Translations under genes and position numbers: made by a program
The notes under the pieces: model-generated
Databases searched by the model: none
Told to the model about the DNA's origin: nothing
The model's input: only the letters and a program-made list of their open reading frames with translations
Shown: positions 47,240 to 52,787 of the stretch, piece after piece
Layout of the letters: each line of letters starts with the position of its first letter
How positions within the stretch are numbered: position 1 is the first letter of the stretch
Assembly: GCA_003170475.1 (NCBI GenBank)
Contig: PMZI01000040.1
Location: forward strand, 1 to 57,468
DNA length: 57,468 nucleotides
Reading direction: 5' to 3'
Source: Ignavibacteriota bacterium
GTDB lineage: Bacteria; Bacteroidota; Ignavibacteria; UBA10030

Positions 47240-47434
47240 TCAGTGACCGTGTTCTGCGGCGTCCATGGATTCGGCGCCGGGGAGCTTTCCTGTCAGTTTC
47301 TGCGGCGAATGAATGAGAATGGGCAGACACTGGGGGCACATCCAGAGATTCCCGCCCATGATTTGCAGCGTAATGAGTGGGACAGCATCTTCGGTGCGCC
47401 TGCAGTTCAAACACTGTTTTGCTTCGACTGACAT
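47240..47434 (-). CDS. Small zinc-ribbon protein
   Basis: A 64-residue protein with CLNC (residues 8-11) and CPQC (33-36), which should form a zinc ribbon, followed by LPILIHSPQKLTGKLPGAES and an acidic/His end. GGGAG 5 bases before the ATG is a good ribosome-binding site. It begins 36 bases after the stop of the 606-residue protein gene and is probably co-transcribed with it. Function unknown. Confidence 0.75.
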   Translation of the reverse strand: MSVEAKQCLNCRRTEDAVPLITLQIMGGNLWMCPQCLPILIHSPQKLTGKLPGAESMDAAEHGH

Positions 47435-47470
47435 ACTACTCCCTGGAAAGGTCGATCTGAAAACTCTCCG

Positions 47471-49291
47471 TTACGCCTGGATGAGCACCGGCACGCCGGG
47501 GACAACAATGTCCATAAGTTCCTGCTCAAGCTCGAGCAACTGATTCCACATGATTTCACGGTACCGTTCAGTCTCCTGAGCGAGCTTCGGAACGAGGGAC
47601 TTGTAGTAGGTAATTCCATTCTGGAGATTTTCTTTGAACGTGTTGAAACGGTTCTGCTCCCGCGCTGTCAGGGAATCAAACCGGGTCTGGATTTCCTTCT
47701 TCAGGTAATCGATATAGAGCCGGAGTTCGTTGATGAACATGTTCGGTCTGTCTGTGGTCGTGATGAGCTGCATCCGGCCATAAATGTGTCCTACCATCTC
47801 CTCCAGCGAAACGATCTTCGAAAAGTACGCGAGGTTCGGACCGGGGCAAACCGCAACCGGGTGTTCGGAAGAACCGTTCATTCCACTATTAATGACCGCA
47901 GAAGCTGCAAGATCTTCGCACAGGCAGGATTTTTCAAGCAGTTTTCCAGTCGTCCGCTCTAACTCATCGGGCGTGAGATCCATACCCTGCAACTGCTTGA
48001 TCTTGAGTCGCTGGTATTGTGTCGAGGCAGTGCAGATTGGTTCCTTGGTGAACTCGGTATTACTGATGAGAAACTTCTTGGTGCAGGGACTTCCGGGTTT
48101 GCCGTCGAGCACGCGTCGCTTGACAAGCTGTTCGCTCGTTGTATCCCGAAGGTTATTGAACGGCACGCCGAGCGGCGAGACGTCGCTCAGGTAAAAATCC
48201 TCTCTCTTGGCTAACGCCAGCTTCTTTCTCGTTTCTTCGTCAACATTGGTCGCCTCGGGCACTAAAAGAAATGGCGATCCCCATCCCGTGCCGTCAACTT
48301 GGTAGTAGTCGATGAGGAATCTGTCCTCTTGCGTTGTACCGATGCCCCCCTGAACGGTGACGGAAACCTTGAGCGGTGATTCCGGCGGACGGACACCCCT
48401 CTCCTTCAAAGCAGCGCAGAAGAGTTCGTGGATCTCGCTGATGAGTTCCGATCTTTTTTCCTTGAAGACCTCGAGGATGGGTCCCAGCAGGTCACCTTCC
48501 GTTGCGAAGGCATGACCGCCGCAATTCAATCCCGATTCGATGCGATATTCAGATACCCAAATTCCCTTTTTTGCGAGTATCTTTCCCTGGATAATCGCTG
48601 AACGGTAATCGCTGACCTTCAGGGTTACCTTTTTTCGGAAATCGCCGTTTTCATCCGGGAGAAATTCGGTGAACTGTGCCATGTAGCTGAATAACCGTGA
48701 ATTCAGGCCCGCGGAAAGAACCACGGAGGAGTTAAGATCACTTTTTACGAATCCACGCAGTGACGAGAGAGCGTCTGAAAACTCTGCCGGAGGCTTTTCG
48801 TTATTCTTCCCCGGATGAAGGCGATCGATCTTCGTCATGATATTCACGTCGATGCTGCCCGCAACGATCTTTGCCCTCAGCTCCTTCTCAAGCGTTAGCT
48901 GTGTGGCTGCATCTTTTGCCTGTATCATCCGACGGTACATTGATTTCAGAGGGGACTGATCCGCCAGCATTTCAAAGTACTTTGCGATTTCACTCCCTTT
49001 CTCAAATGCAGACGCCTTCAACGATTCTATTTGCTCATGCACAATCCGATGAAGGAGATTGAGATATTCCGTGATTCTCCGAGCACGATAATCCTGATCG
49101 TTCGATGTTATCGGTTCATATGTCTCGCCTCGGGAGACGACATACTGCTTCCGCATTTGCTCGATCAAGACATCGTCGACGATCGAGATCACGGAGGAAA
49201 TCCCAAATCGGGCGACTTTGACCGGGGTATCAATCGAGAAAGCCAGTCCCATCACTGGAATGTGAAACGTATGAACTTTGTTCTCTTCCAT
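47471..49291 (-). CDS. Conserved 606-residue Cys-rich protein, possible FMN TIM-barrel enzyme
   Basis: No function recognised. Visible: an opening resembling a beta/alpha barrel strand (DTPVKVARFGISSVISIVDD), YRIESGLNCGGHAFATEGD (Cys257), VTVQGGIGTTQEDRFL and DGTGWGSPFLLVPEATNVD. These glycine-rich loops look like the phosphate-binding loops of FMN barrels such as nitronate monooxygenases or glutamate synthase (inference). Cys403, 420, 456, 458 and 482 could hold an Fe-S cluster (SPCTKK, EPICTAS, SCLCEDL, AVCPGPN). The last 100 residues are helical. No signal peptide; cytoplasmic. A zinc-ribbon gene follows. Related sequences appear to be uncharacterised proteins of Bacteroidota-like lineages (from memory). 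Confidence 0.85.
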   Translation of the reverse strand: MEENKVHTFHIPVMGLAFSIDTPVKVARFGISSVISIVDDVLIEQMRKQYVVSRGETYEPITSNDQDYRARRITEYLNLLHRIVHEQIESLKASAFEKGSEIAKYFEMLADQSPLKSMYRRMIQAKDAATQLTLEKELRAKIVAGSIDVNIMTKIDRLHPGKNNEKPPAEFSDALSSLRGFVKSDLNSSVVLSAGLNSRLFSYMAQFTEFLPDENGDFRKKVTLKVSDYRSAIIQGKILAKKGIWVSEYRIESGLNCGGHAFATEGDLLGPILEVFKEKRSELISEIHELFCAALKERGVRPPESPLKVSVTVQGGIGTTQEDRFLIDYYQVDGTGWGSPFLLVPEATNVDEETRKKLALAKREDFYLSDVSPLGVPFNNLRDTTSEQLVKRRVLDGKPGSPCTKKFLISNTEFTKEPICTASTQYQRLKIKQLQGMDLTPDELERTTGKLLEKSCLCEDLAASAVINSGMNGSSEHPVAVCPGPNLAYFSKIVSLEEMVGHIYGRMQLITTTDRPNMFINELRLYIDYLKKEIQTRFDSLTAREQNRFNTFKENLQNGITYYKSLVPKLAQETERYREIMWNQLLELEQELMDIVVPGVPVLIQA

Positions 49292-52241: not shown

Positions 52242-52787
52242 ATGACAAGAATGAATCTTCTGGTGGCGTGGTTCCTGATTGCTGCTGCAGGCTTACTCGC
52301 ACAGACAAAGTCAGTTGATGTCCTCAAAGAGGAATCCTCGATCACCTACCGGATGAGCCACCCGCTTCATCACATCGAAGCGACAAGCAAAGACGGCTGG
52401 TTCCGCGTTGAGATCGATCCCGCAAAAAAGGAAATCAAGAGCGTGACGGCTCAGGTCGACGTCATGACCTTTGACGGAGGCAATTCGAATCGTGATTCGC
52501 ACGCGATGGAAGTCATCGAATCGATCAAGTATCCCGATGTCACCTTTGCAAGCACAGCCGTGAAGCAGCGCGCTGATAGCATCGAGATCTCCGGAAAGTT
52601 GACGTTTCATGGCGTCATCCAAGAGGTTTTGATGAGGGGTGTGGCAAAGTGGGAGGATCATAAGCTCAACGTGGATGGGGCATTCGAGCTCAGTCTCACG
52701 GCGTTTAAGATCGAACGCCCTGCGTTGTTGATGGTACCGGTAGAAGATGGTCTGAAGTTTTCCCTGAAGGCGGCGTTTGCGTTCTAA
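52242..52787 (+). CDS. YceI-family periplasmic protein
   Basis: A 181-residue protein with signal peptide (MNLLVAWFLIAAAGLLAQ) and the YceI lipocalin-like beta-barrel: VDVMTFDGGNSNRDSHAMEV, SIKYPDVTFAST and ISGKLTFHGVIQEVLMRGVA. YceI proteins bind polyisoprenoid chains, including isoprenoid quinones, and are often encoded with cytochrome b561. The gene begins 13 bases after the membrane protein gene. Here the TFHGV motif stands where most members have TIHGV. Confidence 0.88.
   Translation: MTRMNLLVAWFLIAAAGLLAQTKSVDVLKEESSITYRMSHPLHHIEATSKDGWFRVEIDPAKKEIKSVTAQVDVMTFDGGNSNRDSHAMEVIESIKYPDVTFASTAVKQRADSIEISGKLTFHGVIQEVLMRGVAKWEDHKLNVDGAFELSLTAFKIERPALLMVPVEDGLKFSLKAAFAF

Follow-up and report, generated by a model that had tools for sequence, protein, structure and literature searches.

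What kind of enzyme is encoded by a cysteine-rich gene on contig PMZI01000040.1 of an Ignavibacteriota bacterium (assembly GCA_003170475.1), and is the small zinc-ribbon gene that follows it a partner? The stretch analysed, hereafter the window, comprises 57,468 nucleotides of this contig and comes from a genome of 4.08 Mb in 85 contigs with 96% completeness. A minus-strand open reading frame (ORF) with an ATG start encodes a protein of 606 residues; 36 bases after it lies an ORF of 64 residues, with a GGGAG Shine-Dalgarno sequence 4 bases ahead of its ATG (Table 1). The larger protein carries the glycine motifs VQGGIGTTQ and DGTGWGSPFLLVPEATNVD and seven cysteines (257, 292, 403, 420, 456, 458, and 482), five of which lie within residues 403–482. 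This layout, with the cysteines, both motifs and the good ribosome-binding site of the small ORF, was present as an earlier note on this DNA had described it. That note had suggested a flavin barrel with a metal or iron-sulfur (Fe-S) centre, a combination unlike that of any characterised enzyme, and an accessory role for the zinc ribbon. Our analysis points to a predicted flavin mononucleotide (FMN)/[4Fe-4S] barrel protein of a new family beside the FabX/UfaA branch, which may act in the synthesis of unsaturated fatty acids (UFAs).

A widespread family outside the family libraries

The 606-residue ORF is a real gene, because a whole-genome search found homologues in 112 of 296 genomes sampled from the phylum (67 of 140 genera), almost always as a single copy. 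Family members outside the window's genome shared 46–66% identity with it, and the match extended over at least ~555 residues in 111 of the 112 genomes and was partial in the other (G290). The homologue of G062 (locus L029) contains an in-frame TAG, and a Cloacimonetes-titled homologue (L086:4637-6433) has a single stop within its frame in the same way, reflecting error, decay or recoding. In addition to a full copy, G095 has a second one (C1:4371173-4372856) that was found only as fragments, of which two contain TGA stops; it is an apparent pseudogene. In the species collection, a relative was encoded in at least 571 of 593 pattern-matched stretches. The titles among the best 80 relatives included Bacteroidota, Omnitrophota, Sumerlaeota, Pirellulales, Phycisphaerae, Cloacimonetes, Calditrichota, Syntrophobacteraceae, Desulfocapsa, and Rickettsiales; many relatives in this collection come from metagenome bins and could be mistitled.

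No Pfam, NCBIfam, PHROG or PADLOC family covers the protein, and searches of PDB sequences with the single protein or with a profile of 24 family members (alignment A1) gave no meaningful match. Weak matches only, many to helical proteins, came from searching the protein against Pfam, NCBIfam and PDB, A1 against PDB, and a second alignment of 59 members (A2) against Pfam. Searches of phages and plasmids gave no match to the family, and in viral contigs no match was confirmed; with no PHROG or PADLOC family either, a phage, plasmid or viral origin was rejected. A literature search of limited reach yielded no description that we recognised as this family. Its fold and probable chemistry class are known; what is new is the family itself.

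The predicted fold and profile comparisons place the family beside FabX and UfaA

An AlphaFold2 model built on A2 is a triosephosphate isomerase (TIM) barrel with a predicted local distance difference test (pLDDT) score of 90.4 and a predicted template modelling (pTM) score of 0.90. The top Foldseek match in the PDB was FabX of Helicobacter pylori (9lt5, E 2.3e-9), followed by the enoyl reductases PfaD, DfnA, and MlnA, by FabK and by nitronate monooxygenases (NMOs). FabX was also best in VIA-align (Z 25.4 over 321 residues, 3.0 A, 18% identity), compared with Z ~22-23 for FabK, ~20-21 for PfaD, 18-22 for NMO-type proteins and 15.7 for inosine monophosphate dehydrogenase. This alignment spans residues 2–506 of the model and 7–363 of FabX, that is, the barrel and the cysteine subdomain together. 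Glutamate synthase (GltS) was not among the 50 matches listed by Foldseek or by VIA-align. The comparison with FMN barrels that the earlier note had called for thus returned a TIM barrel with FabX as its nearest structure, which supports the suggested flavin barrel.

FabX (HP0773; PDB 7e1q, 9jsy, 9lt5) is an FMN and [4Fe-4S] acyl-acyl carrier protein (acyl-ACP) dehydrogenase/isomerase of UFA synthesis (PMC8626469). It resembles the family in its TIM barrel, its FMN and GGH motifs and a C-terminal cysteine subdomain located where the family has its five invariant clustered cysteines. It differs in length (363 versus 606 residues), the barrel insertion and the C-terminal helical extension being features of the family, and its identity to the 606-residue protein, 18–21%, is below the 50% above which the FabX paper (PMC8626469) counts homologues. 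The earlier view that no characterised enzyme has this combination therefore stands in part: FabX already joins an FMN barrel to a C-terminal [4Fe-4S] subdomain (PMC8626469), while the family carries no name in the libraries searched and has its own ligand spacing and size.

For profile comparison, a set named A3 was formed from eight Bacteroidota proteins of ~420 residues that are UfaA/FabX-like. One A3 member had FabX as its best match among PDB sequences (3e-28), and from this single comparison with FabX, which did not include UfaA of Neisseria gonorrhoeae (NGO1024), we infer that the A3 proteins are of the UfaA type. A FabX-type protein also occurs in Bacteroidota (L180 of G172), matching FabX at 4e-74 over almost its full length. 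Bacteroidota thus hold two further FabX-related types, the UfaA-like proteins of ~420 residues (L150–L157) and the FabX-type proteins of 355–361 residues (L180 of G172 and L181 of G238). Their cysteine sets differ mutually, with several conserved cysteines including a CLC in the former and C-x3-C-x3-C in the latter.

In hhalign, the family matched A3 alone at E 3.6e-4 (Prob 36.9), the two FabX-type proteins alone at 4.8e-4, and both sets combined at 2e-9 (Prob 96.3, score 78.6). Values for sixteen FabK-like proteins (E 0.13) and five NMO-like proteins (E 0.17) were at the level of twelve control families from the same loci (E 0.12–0.69, scores at most 21.9); all these E-values are pairwise, the sets are unequal in depth, and membership of the FabK-like and NMO-like sets was assigned by reading. 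The UfaA-like A3 proteins align with the family in their barrel motifs and CLC pair; at ~20-21% identity, they differ from it by their length of ~420 residues and by the extra insertions of the family. Given the E-value of 2e-9 for FabX/UfaA against control-level values for FabK and NMO, we conclude that the family most probably sits, as judged from profiles, beside the FabX/UfaA branch and not beside FabK or NMO.

Two other assignments bear on this placement. An NMO or other nitroalkane-detoxifying enzyme would account for the NMO-type fold, the GGH motif and the nosZ neighbourhoods described below. We consider it very improbable, in view of the control-level profile comparison and the lack of any PF03060 match to the 606-residue protein among those listed up to E 5; to our knowledge, moreover, NMOs of solved structure have no cysteine subdomain. 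Just as improbable is an NAD(P)H-using enzyme, either an enoyl-ACP reductase like FabK or a trans-acting enoyl reductase like PfaD. The two are the next-best structures by VIA-align, and FabK, PfaD and DfnA/MlnA share the fold; against this, FabK has no profile relationship to the family above controls, its profile TIGR03151 was not listed for the protein up to E 5, and PfaD, DfnA and MlnA were absent from the A1 profile search of PDB sequences, which missed FabX too. In addition, the family has cysteines where FabK binds NAD(P)H and FabX has its Fe-S subdomain (PMC8626469). Elsewhere in the window's genome PF03060 gave short matches, the best at 1.2e-8 in a frame of 506 residues, some over the curated cut-off and none at 1e-15; a distant NMO or FabK may be encoded there.

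Invariant cysteines and predicted cofactor sites

Conservation was read from A1 and A2 (83 rows) and from a set of 102 rows, in which 20 low-scoring full-length relatives (43–47% identical to the window protein) were added to these. A2 was gathered with the patterns ESGLNCGG and VNIM[TSA]K[LVC]D, so that A2 shows those two stretches as conserved partly by design; neither A1 nor the 20 added relatives were gathered with patterns, H260 and the five cysteines of the cluster are not covered by either pattern, and a few rows of A1 and A2 may come from one genome. C257, C403, C420, C456, C458, and C482 were invariant in all 102 rows and C292 was a cysteine in only 7. N150, E252, G258, G259, H260, G315, and G316 were invariant as well, and position 339 was serine in 75 rows and threonine in 27.

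In FabX, His182 is catalytic, and FMN is contacted by N99, E175, Q240, T243, and several glycines, G220 and G221 among them (PMC8626469). A joint alignment of family, UfaA-like and FabX-type members (A4) has N150, G258-G259-H260, and G315-G316 as invariant columns across the three, and N150, H260, G315, and G316 align with FabX FMN and catalytic positions. E252 pairs with FabX E175 only after a shift of one residue, and S/T339 with T243 by eye.

The [4Fe-4S] ligands of FabX are C300, C304, C308, and C320, in a C-terminal subdomain replacing the NAD(P)H site of FabK (PMC8626469). Of the four ligand positions in FabX-type proteins, the first is paired with C403 and the last with C420; the middle two have no counterpart, no cysteine lying between C403 and C420. 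C456-x-C458 falls in an insertion relative to FabX-type proteins and aligns with the CLC pair of UfaA-like proteins, and the alignments of the cysteine region differ between the FabX-type and the UfaA-like comparisons. With two FabX ligand positions kept, two lost and a CLC pair as in UfaA-like proteins, an Fe-S cluster is predicted at the same site as in FabX with an altered ligand set. The metal or Fe-S centre proposed earlier is supported in this form by the six invariant cysteines and by kinship to FabX, whose corresponding region binds [4Fe-4S]. Alternatively, the cysteines could bind zinc or form structural disulfides with no cluster. The ligand spacing unlike that of FabX and a model built without metal would agree with this; the position, which equals that of the FabX [4Fe-4S] subdomain, the CLC pair common to UfaA-like proteins and the invariance of six cysteines make it improbable. 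We are confident in assigning FMN and Fe-S as the predicted cofactors.

ACP docks on a basic helix of FabX (K152...K159-R160, R164), and replacement of R164 by alanine abolishes acyl-ACP binding (PMC8626469). R230 and K237 of the family line up by eye with K152 and K159; among the 83 rows of A1 and A2, residue 230 is arginine in 82, and position 237 is lysine or arginine in 80.

Distribution and gene neighbourhood

Other genes were counted in the same 296 genomes, each genome being taken as independent with no correction for relatedness. FabX/UfaA-like proteins (A3 model, E 1e-20) were found in 64 genomes, none of which has the family. FabA was found in three, one of them above the curated cut-off, again none with the family. 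No genome holds two of the family, FabX/UfaA-like and FabA, FabM not having been sought. A match to FA_desaturase was present in 172 genomes, among them 87 of the 112 family genomes; the other 25 lack it, including the window's genome, in which neither FabA nor the A3 model nor FA_desaturase matched at the thresholds used. The desaturase was more frequent with the family (87/112) than without it (85/184, p 7.5e-8), and was therefore rejected as a complementary gene; when the FabX/UfaA-like genomes were left out, the proportions were 87/112 and 84/120 (p 0.23).

NosZ was found in 99 genomes, 55 of which also have the family (Fisher p 1.3e-5). The two genes lie on the same contig in 25 of these 55 and within 16 kb in 16, in the taxonomic families f20, f28, f29, and f30, compared with a rough expectation of ~0.4 in 55 genomes (16 kb on either side in 4 Mb) in place of a control gene.

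Neighbours were surveyed at 80 named loci, up to 10 kb per side, and in the window. Clusters of response regulators and sensor kinases recurred at 20 and 19 loci, as genes common anywhere. Beyond these, we found a COX1-family oxidase subunit (17 loci), an ABC ATPase (10), HemN (9), cbb3 assembly-type genes (8 each), NosZ and NosD/NosY-like proteins (7 each), a NorC-like cytochrome, a 2-oxoacid:ferredoxin oxidoreductase and a tyrosine phenol-lyase/tryptophanase (6 each), ThiC (5), and NadA/NadB (3). A profile check was made on one representative each of COX1, HemN, NosZ, cytochrome, ferredoxin oxidoreductase, lyase, ThiC, NadA, and NadB, the NadB one falling just under the cut-off; the remaining names are from reading. 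A sizeable share of loci had no recurrent neighbour. The COX1-family oxidase, the oxygen-independent HemN, NosZ, NadA, and NadB neighbours found in some other genomes suit life at low oxygen. NadA and NadB can spare oxygen-dependent steps. They lie immediately downstream of the family gene in L060 and L100 and three genes on in L062, and NadA/NadB beside the gene, with HemN elsewhere, looks like an oxygen-sparing biosynthetic gene set.

Upstream palindromes were scanned in 75 upstream regions of family genes and 894 controls. With at most one mismatch, CRP-like sites were found in 2 versus 7, TTGTA sites in 4 versus 16 and a fourth palindrome in 0 versus 5. With two mismatches, FNR-like (37/75 versus 280/894) and CRP-like sites (18/75 versus 119/894) were in excess and the others were not higher; this excess could be due to composition, mostly intergenic upstream regions being compared with mechanical control starts, and no regulatory site is claimed.

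Proposed function and its main alternative

Because the protein is FabX-like, does not overlap with the other oxygen-independent UFA enzymes sought and often has low-oxygen neighbours, we propose that it may be an oxygen-independent acyl-ACP dehydrogenase/isomerase for UFA synthesis, and we put the chance of this at about even. An ACP-bound acyl chain would enter the barrel, where FMN would take two hydrogens to leave a trans-2-enoyl chain, and the motif histidine H260 would aid the shift from trans-2 to cis-3; elongation of the cis-3 chain would then give unsaturated membrane fatty acids. Electrons would exit singly through the Fe-S cluster to an acceptor that, unlike that of FabX, is probably not O2. 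Such a route would provide oxygen-independent UFA synthesis to bacteria that lack FabA and FabX/UfaA. More tentatively, the family could form a further widespread class of oxygen-independent UFA enzymes apart from FabA, FabM, and FabX/UfaA, with the Fe-S cluster passing electrons to a protein or respiratory acceptor. It may be speculated that the insertions and the C-terminal helices dock this acceptor or ACP.

Several results weigh against the proposed UFA role. The link to FabX depends on the fold and on pairwise hhalign; in a search of PDB sequences with the A1 profile, FabX was missing from the hits up to E 10. The family lacks the C-x3-C-x3-C-x11-C ligand pattern of FabX, having an aligned cysteine at two of its four positions, and nothing in it clearly corresponds to FabX R164. 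The 64 FabX/UfaA-like genomes are confined to 6 of the 140 genera, so that their non-overlap with the family is confounded by taxonomy, and without them the association of the family with NosZ falls to p 0.064. As 87 of the 112 family genomes are also desaturase-positive, the family is often not the sole possible route. None of the recurrent neighbours at the 80 loci and in the window could be recognised as a gene of fatty-acid metabolism; the neighbours in the window, SerA, SerC (by reading), DUF1015, Rieske and YceI proteins, are not anaerobic genes. FNR-like sites with at most one mismatch were not enriched upstream (4/75 versus 33/894).

The same barrel and cofactors might instead serve another substrate, such as an acyl-coenzyme A, a quinone or carotenoid precursor or a nitrogen-oxide adduct, in an FMN/Fe-S oxidoreductase that replaces some other oxygen-dependent biosynthetic or detoxifying step at low oxygen. 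Respiratory and oxygen-sparing neighbours with no recognised fatty-acid gene, the insertions and altered cysteine pattern relative to FabX, and the desaturase-family gene already present in most family genomes would all fit such an enzyme. Profile kinship to the FabX/UfaA branch, non-overlap with the other oxygen-independent UFA enzymes and the basic helix placed by eye at the ACP-binding position argue for UFA synthesis, and we regard a different substrate as rather unlikely, if a good deal less so than the assignments to NMO or enoyl reductase.

The small zinc-ribbon protein and other features

The 64-residue protein was found in 15 of the 296 genomes, 10 of which also hold the 606-residue gene; it was not found at E 0.001 in the other 102 of the 112 family genomes. 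The two genes adjoin only in the window's genome among the 296 and in a near relative (L031) among the 80 loci. At ribbon loci in eleven other genomes, judged from their translations, there was no common neighbour except among near relatives (two locus pairs alike). The suggested zinc-ribbon partner thus fails the co-occurrence test that had been set beforehand, and an accessory role was rejected for a gene so rare and almost never adjacent elsewhere. The CxxC...CPQCLPxLIH protein (also in L182–L192) represents an unnamed conserved family with 35–60% identity outside the window, whose members lie mostly beside unrelated-looking genes and match Pfam below the cut-off only.

A YceI-domain protein is encoded at 52242-52787 (+), ~3 kb from the 606-residue gene, and a small secreted protein that looks like it recurs in L046, L096, L097, and L104.

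Table 1 Features of the 606-residue protein and of the small ORF, with positions in the window.
Feature	Position	Strand	Basis
Protein of 606 residues, TIM barrel with predicted FMN and [4Fe-4S], new family next to the FabX/UfaA branch	47471..49291	-	ORF, homologues, model, fold match, hhalign
TIM-barrel core with inserted helices, residues ~8-380	48152..49270	-	AlphaFold2 model, fold matches
Mostly helical barrel insertion, residues ~37-145, exceeding the matching stretch in aligned FabX-type/UfaA-like proteins	48857..49183	-	model, alignment
GLNCGGH, residues 254-260, aligned with the GGH of FabX catalytic His182	48512..48532	-	alignment, conservation
QGGIG, residues 314-318; G315/G316 aligned with the FabX G220/G221 GG (FMN contacts)	48338..48352	-	alignment
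GTGWGSPF, residues 334-341; S/T339 paired by eye with FabX T243 (FMN contact)	48269..48292	-	
Cysteine subdomain, residues 403-482, predicted Fe-S site where FabX has its [4Fe-4S] subdomain	47846..48085	-	alignment, conservation
Helical C-terminal extension, residues 518-593, no match in aligned FabX-type proteins	47513..47740	-	model, alignment
64-residue CxxC...CxxC zinc-ribbon-like protein, not a conserved partner	47240..47434	-	Pfam Zn_ribbon_TFIIB below cut-off only

Significance of the family

The family is present in more than one third of the phylum genomes sampled, yet it is not covered, by sequence, by the family libraries searched or by solved structures. Whatever its substrate, an enzyme that is predicted to use FMN, has an unusual set of invariant cysteines and is often encoded near nosZ and genes of microaerobic respiration is a good target for study. 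If the proposed UFA role is true, the family would supply an oxygen-independent UFA enzyme to the many bacteria whose genomes showed neither FabA nor FabX/UfaA. As the further class of such enzymes suggested more tentatively above, it would explain how unsaturated membranes are made free of oxygen in much of Bacteroidota and in lineages with the titles Omnitrophota, Planctomycetes, Sumerlaeota, Calditrichota, and relatives of sulfate reducers. It would also link desaturation of the membrane with the denitrification and microaerobic clusters in which the gene often sits.

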